Shown: piece after piece, positions 18,597 through 33,915 of the stretch
Layout of the letters: every line of letters starts with the position of its first letter
Numbering within the stretch: position 1 is the first letter of the stretch
NCBI RefSeq assembly: GCF_000300005.1
Contig: NC_018691.1
Span: 4,855,001-4,919,000, forward strand
DNA: 64,000 nucleotides
From: Alloalcanivorax dieselolei B5
GTDB taxonomy: Bacteria; Pseudomonadota; Gammaproteobacteria; Pseudomonadales; Alcanivoracaceae
Direction: 5' to 3'
The notes under the pieces: model-generated
The model's database searches: none
Told to the model about the DNA's origin: nothing
What the model saw: only the letters and a program-made list of their open reading frames with translations
Position numbers and translations under genes: made by a program

Positions 18597-19481
18597 ATGG
18601 ATAGAAACTCGCTTCCGCCCCTGCAAACGCTGGTGGCTTTCGAGGCCAGCGTCCGGCTGCGCAGCTTCACTCTGGCCGCACAGGAACTGTCGCTGACCCA
18701 GGGCGCGGTCAGCCAGCACATTCGTTCCCTTGAGCAGCGTCTGGGACGGCAGTTGTTCGAACGACAACGTCAGGGTGTTGCCCCCACCAGGGAAGCCCAA
18801 CATCTGGCCTTGCAGGTGCGCCAGGGCCTGGGTGTGCTGGGGCGGGCTTTCAAGACACCCCGTCGTCGGCACCGCACCACCACCTTGCGTTTGAGCACCT
18901 TGCCAAGCATCGCGCAGCGCTGGCTGTTACCGCGTCTGGCGGATTTCCATCAGCGCTTTCCCGACATCCGCGTGGAGGTCACCACCGCCGTCGATCTGGT
19001 CAAGCTGGGCAGCGACGCGGACAGCGACGTGGCACTGCGCTACGGCCCCGGAGGCTGGCCCGGCCTGCAATCGGAGGTGTTGTCTTCGGAGTGGGTATAC
19101 CCGGTAGCCAGTCCGGATTATCGCGACGGCAAACTACCCCGTCGGCGGGCGGACCTGGCCCATTGCGCTTTACTACGTCACGCGGCACAACCCTGGGCGT
19201 TATGGCTCCAGGCCACGGGCCTGGCACTGACCAACAGCGATCACGGCCCGCTCTTTCCCAACCTGACCAGCCTGCTGGCAGCGGCGGAGAACGGTGAAGG
19301 CATCGCACTGGCACGGCACCATCTGGTGCGTGATGCGCTCGAAGCAGGCCGTCTGGTCCGATTGTGGAAGACCCAGGTAGCCGACGTACATCGCTATTAT
19401 CTGGTCTGGACCCACCAGGCCGATAAGGACGAAGCCATCGGCACATTACGTCACTGGTTGAAAACCGCCTTTACCCTTTAA
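18597..19481 (+). CDS. LysR-family transcriptional regulator, GcvA-like
   Basis: Transcription factor of about 294 aa. A winged helix-turn-helix near the N terminus (LVAFEASVRLRSFTLAAQEL, then LTQGAVSQHIRSLEQRLGRQLFER) is followed by a type-2 periplasmic-binding-like effector domain. LPPLQTL near the start resembles GcvA-group regulators. In-frame starts are GTG 18579, ATG 18588 and ATG 18597; the last gives the usual short leader and leaves the 18579-18594 dyad outside the gene, but none has a clear ribosome-binding site. Probably controls the divergent GST gene. Its stop overlaps that of the convergent antiporter by 4 nt. Confidence 0.9.
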   Translation: MDRNSLPPLQTLVAFEASVRLRSFTLAAQELSLTQGAVSQHIRSLEQRLGRQLFERQRQGVAPTREAQHLALQVRQGLGVLGRAFKTPRRRHRTTTLRLSTLPSIAQRWLLPRLADFHQRFPDIRVEVTTAVDLVKLGSDADSDVALRYGPGGWPGLQSEVLSSEWVYPVASPDYRDGKLPRRRADLAHCALLRHAAQPWALWLQATGLALTNSDHGPLFPNLTSLLAAAENGEGIALARHHLVRDALEAGRLVRLWKTQVADVHRYYLVWTHQADKDEAIGTLRHWLKTAFTL

Positions 19482-20812
19482 ATCGATCGCGCCGGCTGTG
19501 GCGCCTTCAATCGCGGCCGGTTGAAGGCGATCGCCAGCAGCGCCGCCAGCCCCAGCGCCCAACAATAATGAATGGCCCCGATCAATGACAACGGCGACAA
19601 AGAGGCGATGGAGCAGGCCAGAAGAACCTGGGCGCCGTAAGGAATCAGCCCCTGTACCACGCAGGAAAAGATATCCATCACACTGGCCGAACGCCTCGGA
19701 TCGACGCCATACTCCGAAGCGATCTCCTTGGCCATTTCACCACACAGTACGATCGATACCGTGTTGTTGGCGACAAACAGATTGGCGGTGACCACCAGCA
19801 GCGCGATACCGATCTCACCGGCGCGCTGACTGGACAGCTTCAGCCAGCGGGTCAACGAATGAATACGTTCGATCAGCCAGCGCGTGCCACCCTGATCATT
19901 CATCAGTTGCGACAATCCACCGATCAGCATCGATAACAGCATGATTTCGAACATGGATTCGAAGCCCTGGTAGATCGCCGCGTTGACGTCGACCAGACCG
20001 TATTCCGGACTCAATATCGCACCGGTGAGCCCGGCGGTAACGATACCGATCACCAACACCACCAGTACATTCAACCCGGACAACGCCAGAGCGAACACCA
20101 GCAGGTAGGGCATGACCCGCCAGTAGGACACGGATTCGGACGGCACCGTGTGTTCACCTTCCCCCAGCAATGCCAACAGCACCACCGTCGCCAACGCCGC
20201 CGGCAGCGCTATCCAGACATTCACCCGGAATTTGTCTTTGAGGGAGACGCCCTGACTGCGAGTGGCGGCGATGGTGGTGTCCGAGATCATCGACAGGTTG
20301 TCGCCCAACATGGCGCCACCAACCACGGCCCCCAACGACAAGGGCAACGACAATGAGGTGGCCTCGGCGAACCCCACCGCGATCGGCGCGGTGGCCGCAA
20401 TGGTGCCCATTGAGGTCCCCATGGCGGTAGCGATAAAAGCGGAGATCAGGAACAGGGCCGGCAGCACCCAACTGGCCGGCATGATCTGCAACCCGAATTG
20501 CACGGTGGCATCAACGCTGCCGATGCTCTTGCTGACGCTGGCGAAGGCACCGGCCAACAGGAATACCAGGCACATGAGAATGATATTCGGATGGCCGACA
20601 CCCACCAGCAGCCGTTCGACGCTGTGATGGAAAGACTGCCGTGCCAACAGGAATGACAACACAATGGCGACAACCGCCACCACCGGCGCCTTGATTTGAT
20701 AGAACGCGAACTCCGCCCCCACGGCACTGAAATAAAGCCCGCTACCGAGAAAGACGACAAGAAAAAACAGTAACGGGATCAGCGCCCATGCCCGGGCGGG
20801 AGTTTGCGTCAT
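19478..20812 (-). CDS. Na+/H+ antiporter, NhaC family
   Basis: Polytopic inner-membrane antiporter of 444 aa, nearly all hydrophobic, with about 11 membrane segments. Family-typical regions are ATAMGTSMGTIAATAPIAVG, GGAMLGDNLSMISDTTIAA and VTANLFVANNTVSIVL. ATG 20812 is chosen over the open frame to 21169 because it places MTQTPARAWALIPLLFFLVV as the first helix, and the upstream part reads as noncoding. The family also includes carboxylate-coupled exchangers such as MleN, so malate/lactate exchange is possible. It lies 73 nt downstream of the DUF1116 gene on the same strand and may belong to the catabolic unit or be independent. Confidence 0.88.
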   Translation of the reverse strand: MTQTPARAWALIPLLFFLVVFLGSGLYFSAVGAEFAFYQIKAPVVAVVAIVLSFLLARQSFHHSVERLLVGVGHPNIILMCLVFLLAGAFASVSKSIGSVDATVQFGLQIMPASWVLPALFLISAFIATAMGTSMGTIAATAPIAVGFAEATSLSLPLSLGAVVGGAMLGDNLSMISDTTIAATRSQGVSLKDKFRVNVWIALPAALATVVLLALLGEGEHTVPSESVSYWRVMPYLLVFALALSGLNVLVVLVIGIVTAGLTGAILSPEYGLVDVNAAIYQGFESMFEIMLLSMLIGGLSQLMNDQGGTRWLIERIHSLTRWLKLSSQRAGEIGIALLVVTANLFVANNTVSIVLCGEMAKEIASEYGVDPRRSASVMDIFSCVVQGLIPYGAQVLLACSIASLSPLSLIGAIHYCWALGLAALLAIAFNRPRLKAPQPARSI

Positions 20813-20885
20813 AATGGCCGGCCTGTCGGTCCAGGAAGTCTGACCGTCCAGTGTAGGGGGAAACCCGGAATGCCGAAACCGGCTC

Positions 20886-22067
20886 TTAGCCCATGAACAG
20901 CGCTGCCGGAGGCACACAGAGTCCGCGACCCAACAGACCGGCTCGGCCGTCACCGCCCACCATGGCGATGGCCACCCTGGGCAAATCCGTGTCAGCCGTG
21001 ACCCGATGACGCGCGAGCCCGATCGGCAAATGCAAATCCTCGAATAGAGGATGCGCTCCGACCAGCCAGTCCCCTGACGCCGCCGCCGGATCTGGCCACC
21101 ATGGCGCCAGTGCCTCGGCCACTCCGGAACAACGCCCCCACGCCTGGGCTCCCAGCCCGAAAGCATCAATCACGCCACTGTCACCAACCATGGGGCTGGC
21201 CGGCACAACGGAGGCTGATATTCGGGGGCCTTCGGGTACCGGCGCGGTATGAGTGCGCCAAAGTGCCGGTTCGTCGGCGATCCGGATCCCCACCCGGCGG
21301 CCATTACCGGTCAGCGCCAACACCAGACTGGAGCCGGTTTCCCCGGCGGCGGCGGCCAGCATCAGATGACAGGCGCCCATCCATAAAGTGAGAAAAAACA
21401 GCGGCGTATTTCTTAAACACTCACGAACCTCCTCTGGCAAGGTCGATGGCATCGCTGCGCACAGAGCTTGATTGGCGTGGGTAGTCTGGGCGTGCAGATC
21501 GTCACCCGCTTCAAGTCCCAGACGGGCCAGCGGCAGCAGCGCGATCGGCCGGGTCGCCAGCACCTTTCGCAGCGCCGGAGCCAGGACCTGGTCGCGCCAG
21601 CGCAGCCGCTCCAGAATCGCCGGATCCCGGCTGCCAAAGCGGATCTGCGGCCCGCTTCCGCTACCCAGCAAAGACCAGCAACGGTGCCCGGGCTCCACGG
21701 CGTCACTGATTTCCACCAACGCCGTCGATGGCGAGATCACCGCTGCAAGCGGTGTGACCACCGAGAAGTCCTGAGCCGGTAGCAATCTCACCCGGCCCGC
21801 GCTGATCAACCGCTCGGCTTCCTCCTCGTTTCGCGCCCAACCTTCGTACAGACAGCACAGAACCGCGGAAGACAGGATCGGCGGGCTGGGGTCCCGCGGG
21901 TCTTCGAACGGCGGGCCGGCGTGCAGCAAGGTCCGCTCCGGTAATGGCAACACTCGCCGTGCTTCCGCCACGCCAGACCACTGCGGCCGGACCTGCCGGA
22001 CCTTCGACAGCGCCGCCCGATTGGCGCTCTCCACGGCATCCATCCCGACCCTCCGGTCGGATGCCAT
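20886..22067 (-). CDS. DUF1116 family protein (AllG/YlbE-like)
   Basis: Cytosolic protein of 393 aa belonging to DUF1116, recognised by an N-terminal ANRAALSKVRQVRPQWSGVA segment, LLHAGPP (residues 47-53) and CCLYEGWARNEEEAE. In E. coli the relative YlbE (AllG) works with FdrA and YlbF in oxamate carbamoyl transfer during allantoin fermentation. Here neither FdrA nor YlbF partners are seen, so that reaction should not be assumed. The start ATG touches the stop of the amidohydrolase gene (TGA-ATG) and uses a GGAGG located inside it, so translation is coupled. Coupling implies both proteins act on one pathway, possibly on carbamoyl or amide intermediates. Confidence 0.82.
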   Translation of the reverse strand: MASDRRVGMDAVESANRAALSKVRQVRPQWSGVAEARRVLPLPERTLLHAGPPFEDPRDPSPPILSSAVLCCLYEGWARNEEEAERLISAGRVRLLPAQDFSVVTPLAAVISPSTALVEISDAVEPGHRCWSLLGSGSGPQIRFGSRDPAILERLRWRDQVLAPALRKVLATRPIALLPLARLGLEAGDDLHAQTTHANQALCAAMPSTLPEEVRECLRNTPLFFLTLWMGACHLMLAAAAGETGSSLVLALTGNGRRVGIRIADEPALWRTHTAPVPEGPRISASVVPASPMVGDSGVIDAFGLGAQAWGRCSGVAEALAPWWPDPAAASGDWLVGAHPLFEDLHLPIGLARHRVTADTDLPRVAIAMVGGDGRAGLLGRGLCVPPAALFMG

Positions 22068-23339
22068 TCAAGCCACCTCCGGTATCGGCAGAATCGACGC
22101 GGTGGCATCAAAACGCCGGCCCTCCCGCAGGCAAAATACGGGCTGCAACATACGCTCGGCAATCACCTCCGTGCCTTCATTATCGCGCATCAACCAACGG
22201 CCGCTCTCATCGGACAGCACACTGATATCCGCCACCCGACCAGCGCCGAGAGAGCCGATCTCATCGCTCATGTCCACCATGCGCGCCGCGTTCACCGTCA
22301 CCATTGGAATCACCTGCTCCAGACTCAGGCCCAATGCGATCATGCTGGTCATCGCCGACACCAGGCTGAATCGGGAGGTGCCCTTGAACATGTGCTCCTC
22401 ATCCGGATGCTCATGCTCCTCGGGAGTACCCGCCGGCGCCGGAACCGAAGTGTTATAGCCATGCATATCGGAACCAAGCGTATGCGGAACGATGCCCGCG
22501 CTCAGCACTTTCTCCGCCATCTTGAAACTGAAGTGGGAACCGTGCCCGACATCCACCTTGAGCCCTCGCTCGATGGCATCCCGTACCAGCGGGTGCACGT
22601 CTCCATTCACTTCCACGAACCCGCCGGGGTGGCGGCTGAATGGATGAGCCAGCACATCACGCGGTTTAAGCAGATCCACCACCTGGGTAAAGATGGAGTC
22701 CGGGTCCACATCCATACCGCCCTCCTCGGGCTCCGGCCAAAGCTGACCGAAATGAATGTAGACCGGCAGCCCTGTCTGCTCGCCGATGGCGGCGGCCTTT
22801 TGCATCACCTCCGTTCCCCAACGCGCGAAGCCACCCAGCTCGGCGTGGGCCTTGATACCCTTCACCACATCAGCATTGGCTTTGGCCGCCTTGACGGTGG
22901 CGGCAATGTCGGCGCAATCGGGCCGGTACAACTGTGGATAGAAATGGCCTTCCAGCCCTCCCACCAGATAGGCGGAAATAAAGGACAACACCCGGCTGTG
23001 GGAAGGCTCGATCACATGCTTGCGAAAGCCTGGCAGCGTCATACAACTGGCACCACCCTGATCGACCAGAGTGGTGACGCCAGAATGCACACCGCAAAGA
23101 TCCGCATTCAGTCCAAAGCGTCCGGTAACATACTGATAGACATGGCTGTGAGTATCGATCAAACCGGGCAGTACCAGTCGCCCGGTACAGTCGATTCTTT
23201 CCACATCACCGGGCACATCGCTGCCCTGTAAACGGCCCACGGCCGCGATACGCCCGTCGCGCACAAGAACGTCACAAACCTCATCAATGTCGTTGGCGGG
23301 ATCGATTACACGACCGCTGTGCAGTAGTAATGCTTGCAT
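22068..23339 (-). CDS. Metal-dependent amidohydrolase/deacetylase
   Basis: TIM-barrel amidohydrolase of 423 aa with the expected binuclear-metal ligands: H64-x-H66 in DTHSHVY, candidate carboxylated lysine K163, H196, H232 and D291 in GSDMHG. Layout and sequence suggest the Atu3266/EF_0837 deacetylase branch near dihydroorotases rather than true dihydroorotase. ATG 23339 is preferred to an upstream start at 23390 since GGAAGG lies just before it. It opens a minus-strand unit with the DUF1116 gene and is divergent from the Liv-type importer, with operator-like palindromes in between. It would cleave an amide, ester or cyclic amide of an imported compound; the substrate is unknown. Confidence 0.88.
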   Translation of the reverse strand: MQALLLHSGRVIDPANDIDEVCDVLVRDGRIAAVGRLQGSDVPGDVERIDCTGRLVLPGLIDTHSHVYQYVTGRFGLNADLCGVHSGVTTLVDQGGASCMTLPGFRKHVIEPSHSRVLSFISAYLVGGLEGHFYPQLYRPDCADIAATVKAAKANADVVKGIKAHAELGGFARWGTEVMQKAAAIGEQTGLPVYIHFGQLWPEPEEGGMDVDPDSIFTQVVDLLKPRDVLAHPFSRHPGGFVEVNGDVHPLVRDAIERGLKVDVGHGSHFSFKMAEKVLSAGIVPHTLGSDMHGYNTSVPAPAGTPEEHEHPDEEHMFKGTSRFSLVSAMTSMIALGLSLEQVIPMVTVNAARMVDMSDEIGSLGAGRVADISVLSDESGRWLMRDNEGTEVIAERMLQPVFCLREGRRFDATASILPIPEVA

Positions 23340-23468
23340 GAAGACCTTCCGGGTAAACGTTACTGATGCCGACCCGGTAGCAATACACATGCCAATCCAT
23401 TGCTTTTACTTTGTTCCGAGATCACTAATTCATTGTTATTCATGGGCTTACGATCCTCAATATTTATG

Positions 23469-23478
23469 TGGTATACCA
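23469..23478. promoter_or_regulatory. Operator-like site 1
   Basis: TGGTATACCA, a perfect palindrome preceded by ATG (ATGTGGTATACCA). About 130 bp upstream of the amidohydrolase start. Confidence 0.6.
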
Positions 23479-23605
23479 TTTAAATAAAGAAATAACAGAT
23501 TCGTTTCAGACCCCTTCAGTGGGCCCGGCACCAACTCGGACCAGGGAATGTGCACCGACGGTGCGCGTTGCTTTGAAGAAGCGTCATTTTTTATCGCCAT
23601 ATAAA

Positions 23606-23615
23606 TGGTATGCCA
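23606..23615. promoter_or_regulatory. Operator-like site 2
   Basis: TGGTATGCCA followed by CAT; the reverse complement reads ATGTGGCATACCA, so it is the same motif in inverted orientation to site 1. One centre pair differs from perfect symmetry. Confidence 0.6.
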
Positions 23616-23686
23616 CATACTGCCGCATTGTGGTGCGCAAGCCCATTTTCGGGACTGTCTCAGGCACTCTCCCAACATTATTCATG

Positions 23687-23696
23687 TGGCATACCA
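23687..23696. promoter_or_regulatory. Operator-like site 3
   Basis: TGGCATACCA preceded by ATG, identical over 13 bases to the reverse complement of site 2. About 167 bp upstream of the importer operon start. Confidence 0.6.
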
Positions 23697-23863
23697 CCTT
23701 TGTGTATACAAAATATAGTTAATAAAATCATAGGGTTAAACTCATAAGATCCCATCTTTACAGAGGATGGCACAGGACTTGCTGCCTCCTTTCCAGCATG
23801 CCAGCCACGGCTGGAACCCACATCATCATAGTGATAAATCCAATTGTATTTCAGGAGCGCTTT

Positions 23864-25012
23864 ATGTCGATCAAACCGTTGTATGCGATGCTGCTCGGGG
23901 GAGCACTATTGGCATCTCAGGCGCAGGCCGATGACACCATCAAGATCGGTGTTTCACAGCCGTTAACCGGATCCGTGGCCGCTTCCGGGACCTACGTCAC
24001 CAACGGCGCACGCCTGGCCGTGGAATACATCAACGGTGAAGGCGGCGTACTGGGCAAACCTCTGGAACTGATTGTTGAAGACAACAAATCCAATCCCAGA
24101 GAGGCGGTGAATACGGCGGAGAAACTGATCCTGCGCGATAAAGTGCCGGTCATGATGGGAGCCTGGGGTTCCACCTTCACCCTGGCGACGATGCCGAAGC
24201 TGGAGGAGTACGGCGTTCCCATGGTGGTGGAGACCGCTTCTTCGTCCAAGGTCACCACCGCTGGTAACCCCTGGGTTTTTCGTATCAGCCCGACCTCGAT
24301 GATGGAGGCCCAGGCGTTCGCCAAACAGCTTTCCTCATTCACCCCCGCTATCAAGAAAGTGGATTTTCTGTCAGTGAACAACGACTGGGGGTTGGGCGCG
24401 GCCGGTGCCTTCAAAGAGGTACTGGAGAGCAAGGGGATTGAAGTAGGCCGCTCCGAAATCATCGCTCCGGATGCCACTGATTTGTCCGCGCAGCTGGCTG
24501 CCATCAAGAACAGCGGCAGCGACACCATTATCGTTACGTCAGGTGTGGAACAGCTGACTCTGGCGATTCGCCAGGCCGCCGAGCAAGGCATAAAACAAAG
24601 GCTGATCACCACCGGGGGCTCGTTTCCCGAACCTCTGGTGAAGAACCCGGGGCCCAAGGGATACGTCAGCACGCACCTGCTGTTCTTCTCACCCTGGACC
24701 GCGGATCAGGCTCTTCATCCGGAAATCGCCAGGACTTACATGGATGCCTGGGAAGCAAAGGGTTACCCGTTCCCGGGCCTGACCGAAGGCTTTCGCGGCT
24801 ATGACGCCATTCTTACCATCGCGGAAGCCATTCGTGTGGCCGGCAAAGCCGAACCGGAGGCCATTCGTGAAGCGCTTTGGAAGGTCAAGCTGGCCGGCGT
24901 GAACGGCGACATCGCCTTCCACAAGGAAGGCCCTGAAGGCCGGGAAAGCGGCCAGAACACGCCCAATATCTACATCATTCAATTGCAAGACGGCGACGTT
25001 TCAGCGCTGTAA
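23864..25012 (+). CDS. Branched-chain-amino-acid-type ABC transporter substrate-binding protein
   Basis: Periplasmic solute-binding protein of the LivJ/LivK (Peripla_BP_6) type, 382 aa. Residues 1-22 are a Sec signal peptide ending SQAQA. Mature sequence IKIGVSQPLTGSVAASG and VLGKPLELIVEDNKSNP are family hallmarks. ATG 23864 with AGGAG 7 nt upstream is preferred to the frame opening at 23798. It is the first gene of a five-gene importer operon. Relatives bind amino acids, amides, urea and aromatic acids; adjacency to the amidohydrolase and Rieske genes suggests the pathway substrate is the ligand. Confidence 0.93.
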   Translation: MSIKPLYAMLLGGALLASQAQADDTIKIGVSQPLTGSVAASGTYVTNGARLAVEYINGEGGVLGKPLELIVEDNKSNPREAVNTAEKLILRDKVPVMMGAWGSTFTLATMPKLEEYGVPMVVETASSSKVTTAGNPWVFRISPTSMMEAQAFAKQLSSFTPAIKKVDFLSVNNDWGLGAAGAFKEVLESKGIEVGRSEIIAPDATDLSAQLAAIKNSGSDTIIVTSGVEQLTLAIRQAAEQGIKQRLITTGGSFPEPLVKNPGPKGYVSTHLLFFSPWTADQALHPEIARTYMDAWEAKGYPFPGLTEGFRGYDAILTIAEAIRVAGKAEPEAIREALWKVKLAGVNGDIAFHKEGPEGRESGQNTPNIYIIQLQDGDVSAL

Positions 25013-25069
25013 CGGCACCCCCATCCCCTTTGCGCCGCGCAACGGGGATTGGGAGTCAGGGAGATTATT

Positions 25070-25942
25070 TTGGACCAGTTCCTCCAGCACCTCGTCAACG
25101 GCACGGTGCTCGGTGCCACCTATGCCCTGCTTGGCATCGGGCTCACGCTGATCTTCGGCATCATGAAAGTCGTGAACTTCGCCCATGGCGAGTTATACGC
25201 CTTCGGTGCCTATGTGGCCTACGCTCTGGTATCGCTGCTGCAGATGGATTATTTCGTGGCGCTTGTTCTGGCGGCGGGCCTGGGTCTGCTGTTGGGCGCG
25301 GCCATCGAATTCCTGCTGCTACGGCGTTGCCGTCTGGAGAACGTCGACGAAGTCATGCTGATCATGATTGGTGTCATGATCATTATGCAGAATGCCGAAC
25401 TGCTGGCCTGGGGCGGGGTCGCCAAGGTGGTTCCCACGCCATTCCCGCAAGAGTCCATCATTGTCGGCGGCATTTACCTGTCACCAACACGATTGTTCGT
25501 TCTTGGCGCGGCCATCGTGCTGCTGTTGGCCTTCTATCTGGTGATTGAACGTTCCCGGTTGGGGCTGGCAATGCGATCCACCTTTCAGGATGAAGACGCG
25601 GCTCGTATCGTCGGCGTCAACGTGGGCCGGATCTACACGCTCACATTCGGTCTTGGATCGTCGCTTGCGGCAATCACCGGGGCACTGTTGGCGCCGGTTT
25701 TTGTAGTCACACCGACGATGGGAGACCTGGCCAGCCTGAAGGCCTTCGCCATCGTTATTCTTGGCGGTCTGGGCAACATACGTGGGGCTGCCCTCGGCGG
25801 CTTCGCTCTGGCACTGATTGAAGAGTTCGGGGCGGCTTACATTTCCACCGCTTATCGCGACGCGATCGGTTTCCTGGTGATTCTGGCCGTTATGGTTGCC
25901 CGCCCACAGGGGTTGTTCGCGGCCAAGGAAAGGGTGGGTTGA
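25070..25942 (+). CDS. Liv-type ABC transporter permease (LivH-like)
   Basis: Inner-membrane permease, 290 aa from TTG 25070. The first helix region VNGTVLGATYALLGIGLTLIFGIMKVVNFAHGE is a LivH hallmark. No ATG is available near the start; TTG 25070 is preferred to TTG 25049 because AGGGAG lies 6 nt before it. Several further helices and the EEFGAAYISTAYRDA segment near the end are also typical. It lies 57 nt after the binding protein and just before livM. Confidence 0.92.
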   Translation: MDQFLQHLVNGTVLGATYALLGIGLTLIFGIMKVVNFAHGELYAFGAYVAYALVSLLQMDYFVALVLAAGLGLLLGAAIEFLLLRRCRLENVDEVMLIMIGVMIIMQNAELLAWGGVAKVVPTPFPQESIIVGGIYLSPTRLFVLGAAIVLLLAFYLVIERSRLGLAMRSTFQDEDAARIVGVNVGRIYTLTFGLGSSLAAITGALLAPVFVVTPTMGDLASLKAFAIVILGGLGNIRGAALGGFALALIEEFGAAYISTAYRDAIGFLVILAVMVARPQGLFAAKERVG

Positions 25943-25944
25943 TC

Positions 25945-26976
25945 ATGCGGGGATTATCTTTTCTTATCATCGTGGTCGCACTGGCCTTGCTGCCGGTGCT
26001 GTGCCCCGATCCCTATTTGCTGTCAGTGGTGGCCGCCGCCGGAATCATGATCATCGCCGCCATCAGTCTGAACCTGTTGCTCGGCTTTACCGGCCAGCTC
26101 AGTCTCGGACATGCCGCTTTTTTTGGCATCGGCGCCTATACCAGTGCGTTGCTGTCCCTGGGCTTCGACGTCGATCTGGGCTTCTCATCGCCTCTGGTGG
26201 TGGAACCCAAACCGGTATGGGTGGCTTTTATCGGCGGCATCGTCATGGCGTCACTGTTTGGATGGCTGTTGGGCAAGGTCGCTTTTCGCGTACGCGGTGC
26301 CTACTTCGTGATCGTGACCATCAGTTTTGCTCAGGTCATGCGCATGGTGGCGTTGAACTGGGTGGATCTGACCGAAGGCCCCATGGCTCTGGTTTCCATT
26401 CCACCACTGAATCTCTGGGTTCCCGGCGAAGGCGTTGTCCGCCTGGTTAGCAAAGCATCAACGTACTGGCTGGTACTGGCCGCCGGTGTGCTGGCCTACG
26501 TGATCGTGGCCAATCTGGTGCGCAGCCGTATCGGCCGTGCCGCCATCGCGTTACGGGAAAACGAGGTACTGGCGAAGTCCATCGGTATTCCGGTGACCCG
26601 GTGCCTGATTGTCTTTTCGGTTCTCTCCGCCGGCATCGCTGGTGCCGCCGGCGGTCTCTACGCCCATACCGTGCGAATCATCGACCCGGACGTTTTCCTG
26701 TTCATCTACACCATCACCATGGTGATCATGGTGATCGCCGGCGGCAAAGGCACCCTGGCGGGTCCGGTGGTAGGTGGATTGATTTTCGGGCTGTTACCGG
26801 AAGTGCTCAGAGGGGTGGTGGCACCGGAAGTGCAATGGATAATCTACGGTGCCCTGATGATTCTGATTCTTCTGTTCATGCCCAAAGGCATCGTTCCCGC
26901 CTTCGGCGGATTATTGAAGCGCCGCAAGATTTCCGTGCGCCGTCGCCCCTCCGCCACCCAAGGAGCCAGCTCATGA
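25945..26976 (+). CDS. Liv-type ABC transporter permease (LivM-like)
   Basis: Second channel subunit, 343 aa, with the LivM signature SLNLLLGFTGQLSLGHAAFFGIGAYTSAL near residues 38-66 and RVRGAYFVIVTISFAQVM in the middle. ATG 25945 lies 2 nt after the livH stop and is preceded by AAAGGGTGGG; an in-frame TTG at 25939 is less likely. The last 25 residues are basic (KRRKISVRRRPS). The stop overlaps the next start (ATGA), indicating tight coupling with the ATPase gene. Confidence 0.92.
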   Translation: MRGLSFLIIVVALALLPVLCPDPYLLSVVAAAGIMIIAAISLNLLLGFTGQLSLGHAAFFGIGAYTSALLSLGFDVDLGFSSPLVVEPKPVWVAFIGGIVMASLFGWLLGKVAFRVRGAYFVIVTISFAQVMRMVALNWVDLTEGPMALVSIPPLNLWVPGEGVVRLVSKASTYWLVLAAGVLAYVIVANLVRSRIGRAAIALRENEVLAKSIGIPVTRCLIVFSVLSAGIAGAAGGLYAHTVRIIDPDVFLFIYTITMVIMVIAGGKGTLAGPVVGGLIFGLLPEVLRGVVAPEVQWIIYGALMILILLFMPKGIVPAFGGLLKRRKISVRRRPSATQGASS

Positions 26977-27776
26977 CTGTATCCGCGGCAGCACAGCCGG
27001 ACACGTTGTTGTCCTTGTCCGGCATCAGCCTGCGCATTGCTGGCCTGCAGATTCTCAGCGACGTGGACCTCCGGGTGGAGCCCGGCCGGATCGTCAGTCT
27101 GATCGGTCCCAATGGTGCCGGCAAAACCACGGCGTTCAATATTATCTCCGGCTATATGCGTCCCAGTGCCGGTTCAGTGCATTTTCTCGGGCAAGACATT
27201 ACCGGCAAGCAACCCCATGAGATAGCCGAACTGGGTTTGGTTCGCAGTTTCCAGAGGACCAATATCTTCGGTAACTGCACCGTGTTCGAAAACCTGCTTA
27301 CCGCTTTCCACATGCAAGGCCGTAGCGGGCTCTTCGGCGCCATATTCAGGCTGCCCGCCTTCCAGCGGGAGGAGCAGGCGCTGAAGACACGTACACGGGA
27401 GATGCTTGGTTTTCTGGAACTGGAGCATCGCGCTGATGATCTTGCTGCCAATCTGTCCTATGGCGAACAACGTCTGCTCGGCGTCGGCATCGCCCTGGCG
27501 GCCCGCCCCAAACTGCTGTTGCTGGATGAACCCGCCGCGGGGTTGAACCCATCGGAAACCGAAGACTTCAAGCAGATGGTGCGGCGGGTGGCCGACAGCG
27601 GCATCACCATTCTCCTGGTGGAACATGACATGCACATGGTGATGTCGATCTCTGATTACATCATGGTATTGAACCAGGGACACCGCATCGCCGACGGCGG
27701 CCCCGCCGACATTCAAAACGACCCGGAGGTGATTCGGGCTTATCTGGGATCAGGATTGCAACGTGCTAAAGCTTGA
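26973..27776 (+). CDS. Liv-type ABC transporter ATPase (LivG-like)
   Basis: Cytosolic ATPase subunit of 267 aa. Walker A GPNGAGKTT, family-specific ELGLVRSFQRTNIFGNCTV, signature NLSYGEQRLL, and Walker B/D-loop LLLDEPAAGLNPSE appear in order; the C terminus has the H-loop LLVEHDMHMVM. The ATG overlaps the livM stop by 4 nt and is preceded by AAGGAG. A much longer open frame from 26601 lies inside livM and is not used. Confidence 0.94.
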   Translation: MTVSAAAQPDTLLSLSGISLRIAGLQILSDVDLRVEPGRIVSLIGPNGAGKTTAFNIISGYMRPSAGSVHFLGQDITGKQPHEIAELGLVRSFQRTNIFGNCTVFENLLTAFHMQGRSGLFGAIFRLPAFQREEQALKTRTREMLGFLELEHRADDLAANLSYGEQRLLGVGIALAARPKLLLLDEPAAGLNPSETEDFKQMVRRVADSGITILLVEHDMHMVMSISDYIMVLNQGHRIADGGPADIQNDPEVIRAYLGSGLQRAKA

Positions 27777-28467
27777 TGACATTACCGTTCACTATGGCGC
27801 CACCGTGGCGGTGGATAAGGTGTCGCTGGAAGTTAATGCAGGTGAGTTCGTCACCCTCATTGGTTCCAACGGCGCCGGCAAGTCCAGCACGCTCAGGGCC
27901 ATCAGCGGCCTGGAACCCGTGGTCTCCGGCACCATCACTTTTGAAGGAAAGCCCATTACCAACACCAGACCACAGCGCATTATCGAACATGGTATTGCCC
28001 ATTGCCCGGAAGGGCGTCGCGTCTTTTCCCAGTTGAACGTGCGCGAAAACCTGGAGATGGGTGCTTATTGTCGCAGCGACCATGCCGACATCCGCGATGA
28101 TCTGGAGTCCATGCTGGATCGTTTTCCGCGGCTACGGGAACGTATCGAACAACCCGCGGGTACCCTTTCCGGCGGAGAACAGCAAATGCTGGCCATCGCG
28201 CGGGCGCTGATGTCCCGCCCGCGACTGGTCATGTTCGACGAGCCGTCCCTGGGCCTGGCGCCCAACTTCGTTGAGCAGGTTTTCGAATTGACCGCCGAAA
28301 TCCGCGCTGGCGGCACCACCGTGCTGATGGTGGAACAGAACGCCTACGCCGCGCTGGAGCTGTGTGATCGATCCTATCTTCTGGAGACCGGCCGAGTGGT
28401 ACTGCAGGGCACCGCCCGGGAGATGCGGGATAACCCGGATATTCGCAAAGCTTATCTGGGCGGATGA
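27763..28467 (+). CDS. Liv-type ABC transporter ATPase (LivF-like)
   Basis: Second ATPase subunit, 234 aa, from GTG 27763, overlapping livG by 14 nt. It shows Walker A GSNGAGKSS, CPEGRRVFSQLNVRENLEMGAY (a LivF hallmark), signature LSGGEQQML and Walker B MFDEPSLGLAP, then the H-loop MVEQNAYAALE. GTG is chosen because it gives the family N terminus MLKLDDITVHYG. With LivG it powers the importer. Confidence 0.94.
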   Translation: MLKLDDITVHYGATVAVDKVSLEVNAGEFVTLIGSNGAGKSSTLRAISGLEPVVSGTITFEGKPITNTRPQRIIEHGIAHCPEGRRVFSQLNVRENLEMGAYCRSDHADIRDDLESMLDRFPRLRERIEQPAGTLSGGEQQMLAIARALMSRPRLVMFDEPSLGLAPNFVEQVFELTAEIRAGGTTVLMVEQNAYAALELCDRSYLLETGRVVLQGTAREMRDNPDIRKAYLGG

Positions 28468-28535
28468 TACACCGGTGGTCAGCCCGCGCCGCCGGCGGCT
28501 AGACTGAATCGTTCTATCAGTCTGGAGATGACGGT

Positions 28536-29012
28536 ATGCGGCAGGCTCTGTTGATCGTCGATGTGCAACCCTCCTTTTCACCGCCGGCCTGGCTATCCCG
28601 GACCATTGGCCTATTACTTGGCCACATGCCGACGGTAGCGACCGTGGAGTGTCATGACGAAGCCATTACGCCCTTTCAGGCGCAATTGGGTTGGCGACCG
28701 CCGGAACATGAGCGGAGTCTGATCGCGGCCGACCGACAGTTTGTTAAGTACGGCTACCGTCCCACCGACGAGGTACTGGATCATCTCCGCCAACTGTCTC
28801 CGGAAAGGGTTCTGGTGTGCGGCATCCAGACCGAGACCTGCGTACTCGCCGCCGGCTTCGCGCTGTTTGATCTGGGACTGCGCCCGACCCTGGTCACGGA
28901 TTTGACCGTGGGCTCATCACTGGATCCCTCCGGCGCGCTCGGCATTCGGCTTTGGCGGCATCACTTCGGGCACACCACCACATTGGCGGAGGTACTCGCG
29001 ACAAGCACCTGA
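28536..29012 (+). CDS. Isochorismatase-like cysteine hydrolase
   Basis: Cytosolic hydrolase of 158 aa with the isochorismatase-family triad: D9 in LIVDVQ, K71 in VKYGY, and nucleophile C102 in CGIQTETCVLA. The family includes nicotinamidase, N-carbamoylsarcosine amidohydrolase, ureidoacrylate hydrolase and biuret hydrolase, all acting on amide or carbamoyl C-N bonds. It is short for the family (usually 180-230 aa) and lacks part of the N-terminal insertion. It lies 68 nt after livF, on the same strand and likely in the importer transcript, which supports a nitrogen-containing substrate for the cluster. Confidence 0.88.
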   Translation: MRQALLIVDVQPSFSPPAWLSRTIGLLLGHMPTVATVECHDEAITPFQAQLGWRPPEHERSLIAADRQFVKYGYRPTDEVLDHLRQLSPERVLVCGIQTETCVLAAGFALFDLGLRPTLVTDLTVGSSLDPSGALGIRLWRHHFGHTTTLAEVLATST

Positions 29013-29042
29013 AAGCGACCGTGCGGAGAATCCGGGGAAGGA

Positions 29043-30023
29043 TCAGATATCCAGCACCAAATTGGCCGACTGGCTTGAAGAGCAGCAGATGATCATGGTG
29101 CCGCGGCGATCATGCTCTTCCGCCGAACATACCGTGTCCCGATGATCCGGGCGCCCTTCCAGCACTTTCACTTCGCAAGCCCCGCAAAGCCCTTGTTCAC
29201 AGGAGTACATAACGTCGGCGCCGGCATCGCGCAGGGCGTCCAGAATGGTTTGCCCCGGAGCCACTTGCACCTGCGCACCGGAGCGCGCCAAGGTCACCTC
29301 GAACGCATCATTCGACGGGGCCGCCGCGGGGGCGGCCTGGAAGCGCTCCATATGGATGCGGCGCGCCGCGTTCAGCTCCTCTCCCAGTCGCTCCAGATGA
29401 TCGAGCATACCCTGGGGGCCACAACAATAGATCTCGGTTTGCCTGGATACTTCCCTGACTACAGCGGCGAATTGCCCGGCGCTTTCCTCTGCAGAGGCGG
29501 CATAATGCACCGTGACGTCGCTGCGATCGCTCAACGCCTCCAGGAACAGTCCGTGTTTTTCAGAACGGCACCAGTAGTGCAGATGCACGGGCCGACCGCT
29601 GGCACGGACATGCTCGTACATGGAATAGATAGGGGTAATGCCGATCCCCCCCGCCAACAGCAACACCGGCGAGGTGCCCGGTGCCACTTCGAACTGGTTG
29701 CGAGGCGGGCTCAGATCAAACATCTGCCCTACCCGGGCGCTGTCGTGCAACCAGCGAGAGCCGCCCCGGCCGTGCTCTTCCCGCTTTACCGCGATAACGT
29801 AGCGCCGCTGCGAACACAGCGGTGTTATCAGTGAGTATTGCCGTAGCCCCCCACCCGGCAAGCCAATATCCACATGCGCACCGGCGGACACCGGCGGAAA
29901 AGCCGCTGGTGTAATCGCCTCGAATTCATAGAAGATGATCTCTTCAGCACCGTAGCGAATGGTATCCAAACGAACCGACAAGGTCCCAGTATCTTGAGAA
30001 ACACGGGTATCAGACCGTGCCAT
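29043..30023 (-). CDS. Flavin/[2Fe-2S] oxygenase reductase (VanB-like)
   Basis: Electron-transfer partner of a Rieske oxygenase, 326 aa, passing electrons from NAD(P)H through FMN to a plant-type [2Fe-2S] centre. The N-terminal FMN domain has RQYSLI (around residue 60), the NAD domain LLLAGGIGITPIYSM, and the C-terminal ferredoxin domain cysteines C275, C280, C283 and C313 (C-x4-C-x2-C-x29-C). This order marks the phthalate-dioxygenase-reductase/VanB class. The start overlaps the Rieske gene by 14 nt, with GGGAG upstream, so the two proteins are made together. Confidence 0.93.
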   Translation of the reverse strand: MARSDTRVSQDTGTLSVRLDTIRYGAEEIIFYEFEAITPAAFPPVSAGAHVDIGLPGGGLRQYSLITPLCSQRRYVIAVKREEHGRGGSRWLHDSARVGQMFDLSPPRNQFEVAPGTSPVLLLAGGIGITPIYSMYEHVRASGRPVHLHYWCRSEKHGLFLEALSDRSDVTVHYAASAEESAGQFAAVVREVSRQTEIYCCGPQGMLDHLERLGEELNAARRIHMERFQAAPAAAPSNDAFEVTLARSGAQVQVAPGQTILDALRDAGADVMYSCEQGLCGACEVKVLEGRPDHRDTVCSAEEHDRRGTMIICCSSSQSANLVLDI

Positions 30024-31050
30024 ACTGGACTCCCATCTTCTGCAGCCAGGAACGATACTTCATGCCGAGCAGGTCGGTACGGTGGTGGAGTTCCTGACGC
30101 AGATCGGTGGGGATGCGCTCCGGACGCTGCGTGTCGACAATGTCGCTGTCCTGCGCGTAAACCAGATCCTGGCGTTGACGCACTTCATCATCCGTCGGCA
30201 TGGGGTTGAAGTTCATGGCGCAGCAAATCCGGACGATGCTTTCTGTCTCGCTCACCTGTTGAGCGGTCAGATAAGTGCAGAAGCGATCATTGGGGTTCCC
30301 TTCATGGGCACGGTCCGGATCCGTGATCAGGACGCGCTTTTTAAAATAAGCCACCAATGGACGCAAACATTTGTAGGCGTAGAAAGCGGTTACCGGCACA
30401 TTACGCGGATCCCCATAAGGCTGGGTCACTTGCACTTCGGAAGAGGCCAGAGCACCGTTTTCCTCCCAGACGTCGTAAGCCCCGATCGGATCCGGATCAT
30501 CCATCAGACCATTCACGCCCGCGTGCACGAAGGGAAAATGGGTGGGGTCAATAAAGTTTTCCACCGCCCTGTAGCCGGATTTGAAGCGATAGGGTCCACA
30601 CACCACCTTCTTGTAGCTGTCATCATTCCACTCGGGGAAATCCGGAATATCGTGCTCCGGCTCCCCCAGGCTGGTCCAAATGAAGCCGTAGGCTTCCTGG
30701 ACGTGATGACTGATGGCCTTGGCCTTTTTCATCGGTGTTTCCCCCGGGGAAGCAGGGATCAACCGGCACTGTGCCGTGCCATCGTAGTTCCAGCCATGAT
30801 AGGGACACACGACCCGGTCACTGGCGATAAACCCTTTGGAAAGTCGCGCCCCCCGGTGGATGCACAGATCTTCCCAGACATGGGCCTGACCACCGGAATC
30901 ACGCCAGATCACCAGATCCCGCTCGAACAGGGTGGAGGGTATCAGTTTGCCTTCCGTTACTTCGTCGGAAGCGGCCACCACGTGCCAATCATTCAACAAC
31001 GCGGGCTCCAGGGTAAAGTCCTGCTGGTTGAGCTGTTCTCTGCAGTTCAT
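30010..31050 (-). CDS. Rieske non-heme iron oxygenase, oxygenase component
   Basis: Terminal oxygenase of 346 aa. The Rieske [2Fe-2S] site is C63-x-H65-x16-C82-x2-H85, and the mononuclear iron site is D168/H171/H176 in ENFIDPTHFPFVHAG. Single-subunit oxygenases of this size, paired with a VanB-type reductase, do O- or N-demethylation or monohydroxylation rather than ring cis-dihydroxylation with a beta subunit. It is not a close VanA match by eye, so vanillate is not claimed. With an amidohydrolase, a carbamoyl-type hydrolase and an importer in the same cluster, oxidative N-dealkylation or hydroxylation of a nitrogen-containing compound is a working idea only. Confidence 0.92.
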   Translation of the reverse strand: MNCREQLNQQDFTLEPALLNDWHVVAASDEVTEGKLIPSTLFERDLVIWRDSGGQAHVWEDLCIHRGARLSKGFIASDRVVCPYHGWNYDGTAQCRLIPASPGETPMKKAKAISHHVQEAYGFIWTSLGEPEHDIPDFPEWNDDSYKKVVCGPYRFKSGYRAVENFIDPTHFPFVHAGVNGLMDDPDPIGAYDVWEENGALASSEVQVTQPYGDPRNVPVTAFYAYKCLRPLVAYFKKRVLITDPDRAHEGNPNDRFCTYLTAQQVSETESIVRICCAMNFNPMPTDDEVRQRQDLVYAQDSDIVDTQRPERIPTDLRQELHHRTDLLGMKYRSWLQKMGVQYGTV

Positions 31051-31100
31051 CGGTATCTTCCTCGATTACAGCGGCCGGAATAGTACCTTTGAAAAGCAAG

Positions 31101-31110
31101 TTGTATGCCA
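31101..31110. promoter_or_regulatory. Operator-like site 4 (variant)
   Basis: TTGTATGCCA differs from TGGTATGCCA at one base. On the minus strand it reads TGGCATACAA, 51 bp upstream of the Rieske ATG, where a repressor or activator could act. Confidence 0.4.
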
Positions 31111-31267
31111 TCCTTTTGCCAGTCATCTCTGACCTTGCCAGACTTCTCCCGCATTAATCTAAGTCGATGATTTTCTTGGTTATATTAGATGGATATCGAA
31201 CTCGTATGGCGGCCATGAAAGTGCGAGCCCGGAGACCAGGTGTGCCACGGGGCAAGGCATTTTTATG

Positions 31268-31277
31268 TGGTATGCCT
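31268..31277. promoter_or_regulatory. Operator-like site 5
   Basis: TGGTATGCCT preceded by ATG; the left half and flank are identical to sites 1 and 3, and the last base of the right half differs. About 80 bp upstream of the predicted MarR promoter. Confidence 0.5.
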
Positions 31278-31349
31278 CTCAATTGAGCATGACAGGACGA
31301 TCGTTATCCGCCCCTTCTGACCTTTCTCCCGTCACTCGGTGAACCCTGG

Positions 31350-31379
31350 TTGACAAGCCGAAGGGCGCTGGTCTTTACT
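31350..31379 (+). promoter_or_regulatory. Predicted promoter of the MarR-type gene
   Basis: TTGACA (31350-31355), an 18-nt spacer and TTTACT (31374-31379), 37 nt before the start codon. The -35 is perfect; the -10 matches four of six positions. Confidence 0.45.
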
Positions 31380-31416
31380 TCTTCTTATTCTCACCAGATA
31401 TTTCTCCACATTTTTT

Positions 31417-31947
31417 ATGGGCAATTCCTCTAAGACATCCAGGAAAGCGGCCGCCACTCAAGTGGCCACCGCGATCGAACGTTCCGCCCTGCTTGGCCGT
31501 CCGGGTTTCCTGATTCGCCGTTTGCACCAGATCCACTGCGGGCTGTTCCTGGACGAAACCCGGGAGCACAACATCACCCCGGTTCAATACAGCCTGATGA
31601 CCACGTTAAGCACTCATGGAGAGATGGATCAGAATAGCTTGGCCCACGAAATCGGCCTGGAGCGCACCAGTGTGGCGGAGGTGATTCCCCGTTTGGAAGC
31701 CCGAGGCTTGCTTAAACGCCGACAGAGCGACGAAGACCGCCGCTTCAAGCTGGTAAAGCTAAGCCGTAAAGGGGTTTATTTGCTGAAGAAGATGGAGGCC
31801 GCCGTACAACGGGCCCACGATCGTACTATCGAGGCGATCCCGAAAGATCAGCGTGATGTCTTCATGTTGCAGTTGATCAGACTGGTGGAAGCCAACAACG
31901 AAAATGGCAGCGCGCCCTTCCGATTGAACAAGGACGGCGACGGATAA
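31417..31947 (+). CDS. MarR-family transcriptional regulator
   Basis: Winged-helix regulator of 176 aa. A basic, Ala-rich N-terminal tail of about 28 residues precedes the MarR fold: ITPVQYSLMTTLSTHGEMDQ, recognition region LAHEIGLERTSVAEVIPRLEARGLL, and wing KRRQSDEDRRFKLVKLS. The ribosome-binding site is poor, so ATG 31417 is not certain. It is divergent from the Rieske unit and borders the palindrome-bearing regions, making it the best candidate regulator of the cluster. MarR sites are commonly 16-20 bp dyads, compatible with the ATGTGGYATRCCA sites. Confidence 0.9.
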   Translation: MGNSSKTSRKAAATQVATAIERSALLGRPGFLIRRLHQIHCGLFLDETREHNITPVQYSLMTTLSTHGEMDQNSLAHEIGLERTSVAEVIPRLEARGLLKRRQSDEDRRFKLVKLSRKGVYLLKKMEAAVQRAHDRTIEAIPKDQRDVFMLQLIRLVEANNENGSAPFRLNKDGDG

Positions 31948-32085: not shown

Positions 32086-33915
32086 TTACTCCACCGTCAC
32101 CGATTTCGCCAGATTGCGAGGCTGGTCCACATCGGTACCACGCAGTACCGCCACATGATAGCTGAGCAGTTGTAACGGCACGGTATAGACGATGGGAGCA
32201 ATGATTTCCGGCACCGCCGGTAGATTCAGCACATGAATCCCCTCACCGTCCTTCACATGGGCGTTCTTGTCGGCGAACAGGTACAGCTCACCGCCGCGGG
32301 CGCGCACTTCCTGCAAGTTGGATTTCAGTTTCTCCAACAGTTCGTCGTTGGGCGCCACCGCCACCACCGGCATGTCTTTGTCCACCAACGCCAGAGGACC
32401 ATGCTTCAGCTCACCGGCCGGGTAGGCTTCGGCATGGATGTAGGAAATCTCCTTTAGTTTGAGTGCCCCTTCCATGGCCACGGGGAACTGGACACCGCGT
32501 CCCAGAAACAGGGTGTGATGTTTTTCCACGAAGGCCCGGGAGAGCTGCTCGATCGGCTTGTCCAGAGAGGTGGCTTGTTCGATCAGGTTCGGCAATTGGC
32601 GCAGTTCGTTGAGAATACTCTCGATCTTCTCGTCCGCCATGCCTTTACGCCGGCCCAGTGCCATTACCAGCATCAACAAGGCGGTCAGCTGGGTGGTGAA
32701 CGCCTTGGTGGAAGCCACACCGATTTCCGGACCGGCCTTGGTCAGGAACACCAATTCGGATTCGCGCACCAGAGAAGAGCCGTCCACGTTACAGATCGCC
32801 AGACGACCCACATAGTTGCTGGAGTCGGTATCACGCAAAGCCGCCAGGGTATCGGCGGTTTCCCCACTCTGGGAGATGGTGACGAACAGCGTGCCTTCCG
32901 GCACCACGTGCTGGCGATAACGGAATTCACTGGCCACTTCCACCTGGCAGGGGATGCCGGCGAGCGCTTCCAGCCAGTAACGAGCTACCATGCCGGCATG
33001 GTAGCTGGTACCGCAGGCAACGATCTGCACGGTACGCACCTGATCGAAAATCGCCGTCGCCCGCTCTCCAAAAGCGTCGCTCACGCTTTGCGGCGAGTCG
33101 ATGCGGTCTTCCAGGGTGCGCTGGATGGCGGCCGGCTGCTCGAAGATTTCCTTCTGCATGTAATGGCGGTACTCGCCTTTTTCCGCATCCTCATGGGCGC
33201 CGTCCAGCTCATGCACTTCGCGGTTCACTTCATTGCCGTCCGCGTCGAAGATACGCACACCTTCGAGCGTCACGTCCACCATGTCCCCTTCACCCAGGAA
33301 TACGAAGCGGTTGGTCACCGGCAACAGCGCCAGTTGATCGGATGCCACGTAGTTTTCATCGATACCCAAACCCACCACTAACGGAGAGCCGGAGCGGACC
33401 GCCACCAGACGATGGGGCTCCCGCGCATGGATCACGCCCAGGGCATAGGCGCCGCGCAGCCGTTTGACCACGCTCTGCAAGGCGCGGAACAGATCACCGG
33501 TTTCCGCCATGGCGCGATGGACCAGATGCACCACCACCTCGGTGTCGGTCTCGGAAGCAAACTGATAGCCTTCGCTTTCCAGTTCCTCGCGCAATTCCTG
33601 GAAGTTCTCGATGATGCCGTTATGTACCAGAGCCAGTTCCTCACCGGACAGGTGCGGGTGGGCATTTTTTTCCGATGGGCGACCATGAGTAGCCCAACGG
33701 GTGTGTGCGATACCGGTGAAGCCGGTGGCACCGGTTTCACGGACCGCCTGTTCCAAGCCGGCCACTTTTCCCTGGCGGCGCACGCGCTGCAGGCCCTGAT
33801 CATTGATCAAGGCCACACCGGCACTGTCGTAACCCCGGTATTCCAGGCGTTTCAGGCCGGTGATCAAAATATTGCTGACGTTGCGCTGAGCCACAGCCCC
33901 GACGATTCCGCACAT
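32086..33915 (-). CDS. glmS: Glutamine-fructose-6-phosphate aminotransferase
   Basis: Makes glucosamine-6-phosphate from fructose-6-phosphate and glutamine, the entry step to cell-wall and LPS aminosugars. 609 aa, full length. The N-terminal glutaminase begins [11 protein letters not shown] with nucleophile C2 after Met removal; two SIS domains follow ([14 protein letters not shown], then [21 protein letters not shown]), and the C terminus ends [13 protein letters not shown], the conserved TnsD-binding end used by Tn7. It begins 19 nt after glmU and is probably co-transcribed with it. Confidence 0.98.

Follow-up and report, generated by a model that had tools for sequence, protein, structure and literature searches.

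Which compound would be degraded, and by which route, by genes that join a Rieske oxygenase, a metal-dependent amidohydrolase and an AllG-like (DUF1116) protein is the question raised by positions 20886–31947 (hereafter the island) of a 64,000-nt stretch of the Alloalcanivorax dieselolei B5 genome. The whole stretch, hereafter the window, corresponds to C1:4855001-4919000 of a 4.93-Mb genome in a single contig. A sequence-only reading had described the island as a catabolic unit for a nitrogen-containing compound, with a Liv-type importer, a Rieske oxygenase and its reductase, an amidohydrolase, a DUF1116 protein, a cysteine hydrolase and a MarR regulator. All of these were found to be present, each as an intact open reading frame whose family was confirmed by profile scans and motifs. 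The tight packing and overlaps that had been claimed were real, with spacings of 0 nt between allG and the amidohydrolase gene, −4 nt for livH/livM and livM/livG, and −14 nt for livG/livF and reductase/Rieske. The order of events then suggested, import followed by oxidation and hydrolysis, fits the confirmed gene families. We give an even chance to the reading that the island is one MarR-controlled module by which an N-heterocyclic compound is used as a nitrogen, perhaps also carbon, source via an acylurea.

The combination had not been recognized as a known pathway, and a literature search, with subscription journals mostly outside its coverage, agreed with this. Among the publications listed, it found no assignment for the cluster in the literature on oxalurate/hydantoin, hpxDE, OXTCase, HpxW, barbiturase/ureidomalonase, the amidohydrolase family, or Alcanivorax and nitrogen, and no publication joining DUF1116 with a Rieske protein. 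Comparative evidence was obtained by an amidohydrolase-alignment scan of 84,980 species, which gave at least 508 confirmed relatives. The best 80 were kept and, together with L013 and L015, made up 82 scored loci. Excluded were the deletion locus L014 as well as L011 and L012, which duplicate L017 and L016, respectively. Loci were scored by tblastn (E 1e-8, 40% coverage), a match meaning presence in the same locus and not always the next gene; genes were called by a custom script and families scanned on representatives. Close relatives of the query are over-represented in the set, several of the loci are short, and the counts include weak matches (some Liv, short-chain dehydrogenase (SDR), amidase and HpxW-like matches were 25–37% identical). 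With these limits, a molybdenum-hydroxylase large subunit was matched in 61 loci, MarR in 54, a Liv binding protein in 36, AllG in 30, an alpha/beta hydrolase in 22, SDR in 19, HpxZ in 14, an AtzE-like amidase in 13, a 2-oxoglutarate (2OG) oxygenase in 12, an HpxW-like protein in seven and the reductase in six. The neighbourhood recurred in Alpha-, Beta- and Gammaproteobacteria. An apparent mutual exclusion of AllG and alpha/beta hydrolase (0/24 vs. 14/30) was discarded, as it gave no signal on the tree described below, with three independent pairs.

The SxtT/NdmA-like Rieske non-haem iron oxygenase (30010–31050, minus strand; PF00355 and PF19112 (VanA_C)) has its ligand motifs intact (C-x-H...C-x2-H and N-x2-D-x2-H-x4-H), and its partner is an FNR-type reductase with a C-terminal plant-type 2Fe-2S domain (29043–30023, minus strand; PF00111, PF00175). 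This pair was found in five of the 82 loci, namely the two Alloalcanivorax loci L016 and L017, L018 from Pseudomonas, L040 from a betaproteobacterial metagenome-assembled genome and L042 from Marinobacterium. In each of them the reductase gene followed the Rieske gene, and none contained a molybdenum enzyme. Among the 54 loci that were 20 kb or longer, the molybdenum enzyme was present in 0/4 Rieske loci vs. 41/50 others (Fisher p 0.002, kinship ignored). A quick IQ-TREE phylogeny of the amidohydrolase (83 rows, SH-aLRT support only) was labelled for 56 rows, comprising the long loci, the window and the short L040, added by hand; the other 27 were not counted. The Rieske carriers needed three changes on this tree, all three forced by starred branches, whereas shuffled labels needed 5.8 on average. 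L018 (Rieske) and L019 (molybdenum) grouped with the window copies (support 99), and L040 (Rieske) was sister to L031 (molybdenum; support 98); L042 formed a long branch of unsure place. L031 and L040 differed mainly in the oxidase, both containing AllG, HpxZ, amidase, MarR and a Liv binding protein 69–71% identical to that of the window.

In this cluster type, the Rieske pair replaces a molybdenum hydroxylase. Molybdenum hydroxylases were the commonest oxidase in homologous loci, whereas in the island the Rieske pair stands in their place; the large subunit of one representative, L019, was closest to quinoline 2-oxidoreductase 1t3q (469 bits, vs. 429 for CO dehydrogenase, one subunit compared). 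We infer that both oxidases do the same chemistry, a ring hydroxylation next to nitrogen. Oxidative dealkylation or hydroxylation had been proposed; because the Rieske pair takes the place of the molybdenum hydroxylase, ring hydroxylation is favoured, and dealkylation is kept as the less favoured possibility. The 2OG oxygenase was rejected as a general oxidase substitute, as L013 and L015 were the only loci in which it occurred in the absence of a molybdenum enzyme, the other 10 having both; an SDR gene was present in 12/12 of these loci.

A further line of evidence comes from the allG-like gene (20886–22067, minus strand; 393 aa). DUF1116 is Pfam's present AllG family, and the product matched PF06545 over the cut-off (E 8.6e-59). 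It showed 30% identity to E. coli AllG, with H49, E75, R143, G188-D189, H192, N255-G256 and G295-D296-S297 kept. The only fold match of its AlphaFold2 model (pLDDT 94.6) at E ≤ 0.001 was 3clq, a protein from Enterococcus that is uncharacterised; the one after it had E 0.5. E. coli OXTCase converts oxalurate and phosphate to oxamate and carbamoyl phosphate and needs AllF, AllG and AllH (PMC11326118, partial text); in the available portions of PMC12625717 and PMC3364942, AllG appears solely as part of allFGH or as a candidate. A genome-wide sequence search with E. coli AllH gave no AllH in the A. dieselolei genome, and E. coli AllF gave only a 24% match (residues 117–290, E 2.6e-6) in a 304-aa frame, which is too short to be AllF. 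E. coli AllF, AllH, AllK and AllD had matches in 0/82 amidohydrolase loci, AllK being sought only in these loci. The window protein thus shares its family and many conserved residues with the OXTCase subunit, but it has neither AllF, AllH nor carbamate kinase alongside, an oxygenase belongs to its setting, and in some relatives AllG is fused to or adjoins HpxZ. Such an AllG-HpxZ fusion was found in L018 (11253–12812; HpxZ model NF033625 166 bits, cut-off 135), where the amidase, a GGT-family protein and the Rieske pair come next, and as a single frame in L019 (about 15700–17257; HpxZ 161 bits). These fusions in two pseudomonads suggest that AllG and HpxZ act on the same intermediate or on successive ones.

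In addition to the fusions, HpxZ and the amidase occurred together in the 54 long loci (7/10 vs. 1/44, kinship ignored), and HpxZ was detected over its cut-off at two other places in the A. dieselolei genome. At the first (L100, C1:4311000-4329999; positions 5530–13823), HpxZ adjoins a GGT-family protein and a PRK08310 amidase (465 bits, cut-off 391), PRK08310 being the family of the AtzE-like cluster amidase; a regulator, a creatininase-family protein, an FAD-linked oxidase and an NMT1-type binding protein/importer were also present. Both this GGT-family protein and the one in L018 were closest to 5hft, which we take to be Klebsiella HpxW. The final reactions of the island's route may be provided by L100. 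Enzyme work on HpxW is cited in PMC5270733. The second place (L101, C1:785000-803999; positions 4803–9115) contains an HpxZ/AtzH-like gene, a carbon-nitrogen hydrolase and two isochorismatases, one of them over the cut-off for the biuret hydrolase BiuH. L101 also has an ABC ATPase that by eye is of nucleoside type, and it resembles published triuret/biuret loci. Compared to the Klebsiella HPX oxalurate branch (HpxW, HpxY, HpxZ), some relatives of the island possess HpxZ over the NCBIfam cut-off, a PRK08310 amidase and a 5hft-like protein, and a comparable trio lies elsewhere in the A. dieselolei genome, the amidase not being identified as HpxY; in contrast, no urate or allantoin genes were seen, and AllG, the amidohydrolase and the molybdenum or Rieske oxidase are added in the cluster. 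Since AllG is of an OXTCase family and is accompanied by HpxZ, the AtzE-like amidase and the HpxW-like hydrolase in some relatives, an oxalurate-type acylurea end game is suggested.

That the genes form one regulated unit is indicated by operator-like sites, which the earlier reading had described as shared. The presumed cluster regulator is the MarR-family protein (31417–31947, plus strand; PF01047). An operator-like palindrome, TTTAnnTGGTATACCAnnTAAA, was framed as common to both divergent intergenic regions, and motif matches were found at 23463–23484 upstream of the amidohydrolase gene (18/18), at 23600–23621 (14/18), at 23684–23699 in the amidohydrolase-livJ intergenic region, and at 31262–31283 between the Rieske and marR genes (14/18). 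The core TGGTATRCC had six matches in the window vs. 0.54 expected, and five of the six lay within the two divergent intergenic regions; these five correspond to four sites, because two are the opposite strands of the 23463 palindrome. Since the motif had been framed on the window sites themselves and L018, it was tested on 79 other loci (1.43 Mb; L014, L016, L017 and L018 left out), where 13 sites at ≥14/18 were found, compared to 0, 0 and 1 in first-order Markov controls. Seven of the 13 were located ≤500 bases upstream of an amidohydrolase or marR gene. The remaining six were L031 8707, 8987 and 18797, L037 4161, L040 6586 and L068 503, of which L031 8707 and 8987 adjoin marR close to the gene for the molybdenum hydroxylase, and L040 6586 lies just after AllG. 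MarR would, through this shared palindrome (TGGTATACCA sites), repress both divergent operons until a ligand is present; the sites are observed, and the direction of control is the presumed one. Guanidine-I riboswitches on the minus strand of L019 (2397–2497) and L020 (4800–4917) precede other genes, kilobases from the clusters and away from the operator sites.

The amidohydrolase was also present in 17 plasmid records, of which four were inspected. A Caballeronia plasmid was annotated in the order MarR, amidohydrolase, xanthine-dehydrogenase-family (molybdenum hydroxylase) subunits, SRPBCC, DUF1116, hpxZ and amidase, and a Pacificitalea plasmid contained MarR, molybdenum hydroxylase, DUF1116 and the amidohydrolase. 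A Geminicoccaceae plasmid contained an alpha/beta hydrolase, molybdenum hydroxylase and Liv genes, and an Azospirillum plasmid Liv genes, a GGT-family protein and a molybdenum subunit, neither having DUF1116 in the stretch. Rieske homologues matched 18 plasmid records, and the three inspected were 52–54% identical. On a Rhodococcus ruber MSA14 plasmid (L105, L111; typed conjugative), two DUF1116 genes were seen, one adjoining a Rieske-reductase pair, and the plasmid also carries two Rieske-reductase pairs, a formate dehydrogenase set and malate synthase G. On a Pantoea sp. At-9b plasmid (L104, L112), the 54% identical homologue adjoins a second Rieske gene, a reductase and an NMT1-type importer, and the locus further holds isochorismatases, an AtzH-like protein and an FAD monooxygenase, which failed the NCBIfam cut-off for HpxO. 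The Rieske oxygenase is rare: at E ≤ 1e-80 it was found only in the A. dieselolei genome among 369 gammaproteobacterial genomes drawn.

On these observations the following route is proposed. The Liv-type ABC importer would bring in a small polar ring compound, the reductase would deliver electrons to the Rieske oxygenase, and the latter, if it does the chemistry of the enzyme with which it is exchanged, would hydroxylate the ring next to nitrogen. The metal amidohydrolase would, judged from its family, open the resulting cyclic amide or ureide, and AllG, in some relatives together with the HpxZ, AtzE-like amidase and HpxW-like hydrolase found in the same loci, would dismantle an N-acylurea of the oxalurate or ureidomalonate type. 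The amidase, HpxZ and HpxW-like genes elsewhere on the chromosome could finish the route in trans. A cyclic ureide or its heteroaromatic parent is preferred, given the link of AllG, HpxZ and the HpxW-like partner to oxalurate chemistry. HpxDE takes over the role of xanthine dehydrogenase. Described as a Rieske-type system that oxidises hypoxanthine (PMC7373994, excerpt), it is a precedent for such chemistry; the likeness to the window pair, proposed to hydroxylate an N-heterocycle, is one of reaction logic, and HpxDE differs in that no purine gene set lies near window-type clusters. More tentatively, and as a joint claim to which we give well under an even chance, the stand-alone AllG would be a new N-acylurea-cleaving enzyme acting without AllF/AllH, and the cluster an undescribed oxidative cyclic-ureide route with interchangeable Rieske and molybdenum first-step oxidases. 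A pyrimidine may then be degraded via a ureidomalonate-like acylurea, or an imidazolone/hydantoin via parabanate to oxalurate. For the oxidative pyrimidine pathway (uracil dehydrogenase, barbiturase, ureidomalonase), the reaction of the AtzD-type barbiturase would then fall to an amidohydrolase of another kind.

Several results weigh against the acylurea module. AllF and AllH, both needed by E. coli OXTCase (PMC11326118, partial text), do not accompany the window AllG. Near the amidohydrolase, HpxZ, the amidase and the HpxW-like protein reached only the 14, 13 and seven loci given above, some with low identity, and none of the three lies beside the window island. In the 54 long loci the co-occurrence of AllG with HpxZ was weak (8/24 vs. 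2/30, p 0.016, kinship ignored), and AllG showed no association with the amidase (5/24 vs. 3/30, p 0.44, kinship likewise ignored). A search of the 82 loci with 25 E. coli purine, allantoin and pyrimidine marker proteins, in which matches overlapping the amidohydrolase or CoxL were dropped, gave no purine, allantoin or complete Rut set near the amidohydrolase; 18 of the 25 had no match, and the other seven were matched in 1–4 loci each. No NMT1-motif (xanthine/urate) riboswitch was found over the gathering score in 19 sources. The amidohydrolase was absent from all three inspected Rieske plasmid loci, and DUF1116 was present in one of them (Rhodococcus ruber). Flavin monooxygenases or an Asp/Glu racemase-family gene near some copies would also fit pyridine-like substrates. 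Finally, the molybdenum large subunit of L085 had its best NCBIfam score with a CO dehydrogenase model (526 bits, below the cut-off of 950). AYxCSFR is the CO dehydrogenase motif. It was found in none of 61 matched molybdenum-subunit stretches, some of which are partial, and with the L019 subunit closest to quinoline 2-oxidoreductase, a CO dehydrogenase is thought unlikely as the molybdenum partner.

The alternative that survives best is an N-heteroaromatic substrate without a ureide (pyridine, quinoline or nicotinate-like), which the oxidase would hydroxylate and the amidohydrolase would open as a lactam, AllG, the amidase and the isochorismatase removing simple amides. Nicotinate clusters, too, contain an isochorismatase and a MarR gene. 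The similarity of the L019 molybdenum partner to quinoline 2-oxidoreductase would agree with such a substrate, as would the Azospirillum copy, which has genes for an FAD monooxygenase and an Asp/Glu-racemase-family protein downstream, and the FAD monooxygenase and isochorismatase near the Pantoea Rieske homologue. However, no ring-cleaving dioxygenase was found among the window island genes by family scan, and the oxalurate chemistry to which AllG, HpxZ and the HpxW-like protein are tied (PMC11326118, partial text) argues for a ureide; we consider this alternative unlikely.

Distinctly less probable is N-dealkylation, in which an NdmA-like Rieske oxygenase would N-demethylate a cyclic ureide or guanidine (methylxanthine, N-methylhydantoin or creatinine-like) before the hydrolases act. 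The nearest solved structures of the Rieske oxygenase point in this direction, being SxtT (E 2e-51), SxtDIOX (E 5.9e-50) and NdmA (E 8.8e-29); the ligand motifs are intact in the window protein as well, and the difference from these enzymes lies in its gene context. Formate dehydrogenase and malate synthase G accompanying DUF1116 and Rieske genes in Rhodococcus ruber, and the DAO-family flavoenzyme near two Methylobacterium copies, which by eye is sarcosine-oxidase-like, would also agree with a demethylating pathway. Against these stand the exchange of the Rieske pair with molybdenum hydroxylases, to our knowledge not a class that demethylates, and the island itself, among whose genes no formaldehyde-handling gene was recognized.

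A canonical allantoin/oxalurate (ALL) or HPX purine pathway with OXTCase could be imagined from AllG being an OXTCase subunit in E. coli (PMC11326118, partial text) and from the HpxZ and HpxW-like genes in relatives and elsewhere in the A. dieselolei genome. It is very improbable and largely refuted, as AllF, AllH, AllK and AllD were absent from the 82 loci, the genome has no AllH and only the partial 24% match to AllF, no allantoinase or urate gene lies near, and xanthine dehydrogenase-like matches were only scattered; the canonical OXTCase is rejected. That the genes adjoin by chance and share no pathway, as the variation of isochorismatase and importer type between lineages might indicate, is the most improbable explanation of all and is refuted for the core by the recurrence of the neighbourhood in three proteobacterial classes and by the shared operators.

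The acylurea module is also supported by its inheritance. AllG was sought in 46 genomes of the family, and nine of them, that of A. dieselolei included, had matches at E ≤ 0.001. In two Alloalcanivorax relatives, G018 (AllG 90%) and G028 (AllG 88%), the whole island was syntenic with 88–99% protein identity, which together with the 82 loci bears out the co-inheritance proposed earlier. G028 and G018 are the same records as L016 (A. xenomutans JC109, amidohydrolase 98% identical) and L017 (A. balearicus MACL04, 97%), the nearest named carriers. G021 and G019 contained a 36–39% identical AllG adjoining a 62–64% identical amidohydrolase and a 67–69% identical MarR, with no Rieske, livJ, livH or livM match within their 20-kb stretches; three further matches in the family were weak (E 1e-4 to 8e-4). 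G029 (L014) represents a natural deletion of the island, lacking ~10.4 kb of the window equivalent; side by side at L014 9181–9644 remain AllG residues 325–392 (an 84% fragment) and marR residues 23–59 and 128–176, and the antiporter and glmS genes are kept. The Na+/H+ antiporter gene nhaC (19478–20818) is the neighbour of the island on one side and glmS (32086–33915) on the other; nhaC is an unlikely member, because it is intact in this island-less relative. The island does not look foreign by composition, since its G+C content (58.6%) is close to that of the window (60.2%).

The amidohydrolase (22068–23336, minus strand) is of the PRK09237 type (NF006689, 406.6 bits, cut-off 371), with its start placed near an internal ATG because the upstream extension contains a stop in L012. 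Its best solved relative was 2ogj (E 1e-38); D-x-H-x-H, the VKG-x-KAH lysine region and the later H and D are intact, and the metal-ligand motifs were invariant across five copies. A phosphoribosyltransferase-domain protein (scanned in L075) was seen near the amidohydrolase in L030, L055, L059 and L075 (cluster c33), a possible hint of nucleobase-like substrates. The importer consists of a Liv/HAAT-type substrate-binding protein (livJ, 23798–25012; PF13458 E 9e-64), two permeases (livH, 25049–25942, and livM, 25939–26976; both PF02653) and two ATPases (livG, 26973–27776, PF00005 and PF12399, and livF, 27763–28467, PF00005), all on the plus strand. The binding protein may start at the internal ATG of MSIKPLYAM, and copies 69–75% identical were present in L022, L023, L025, L026, L031 and L040; the ATPases were 97–98% identical in G018 and G028. 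The cysteine hydrolase is a short isochorismatase-like protein (28536–29012, plus strand; 158 aa) matching PF00857 over residues 66–152 (E 4e-11), with the catalytic D, K and C present and one weak match, 8rkz, among solved structures. Its gene was matched in only two of the 82 loci, both Alloalcanivorax, and is therefore placed outside the conserved core. Thus, of the neighbourhood that had been predicted to co-occur, amidohydrolase, MarR, oxidase and AllG recur, and the six families do not form one fixed set, the isochorismatase being local and the importer type differing between lineages. Elsewhere in the window, a 705-aa protein (4677–6794) combines an alpha/beta hydrolase domain with a short-chain dehydrogenase domain.

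A natural test of enzyme replacement is provided by operons that otherwise match but in which a molybdenum hydroxylase and an iron Rieske oxygenase have repeatedly been exchanged. Given that E. coli OXTCase needs three proteins, the cluster also offers an experimental handle on AllG acting by itself. Most of the 82 neighbourhoods pair the amidohydrolase with an oxidase and MarR, and if this holds more widely, a common catabolic pathway of soil and marine bacteria would still be without an assignment.

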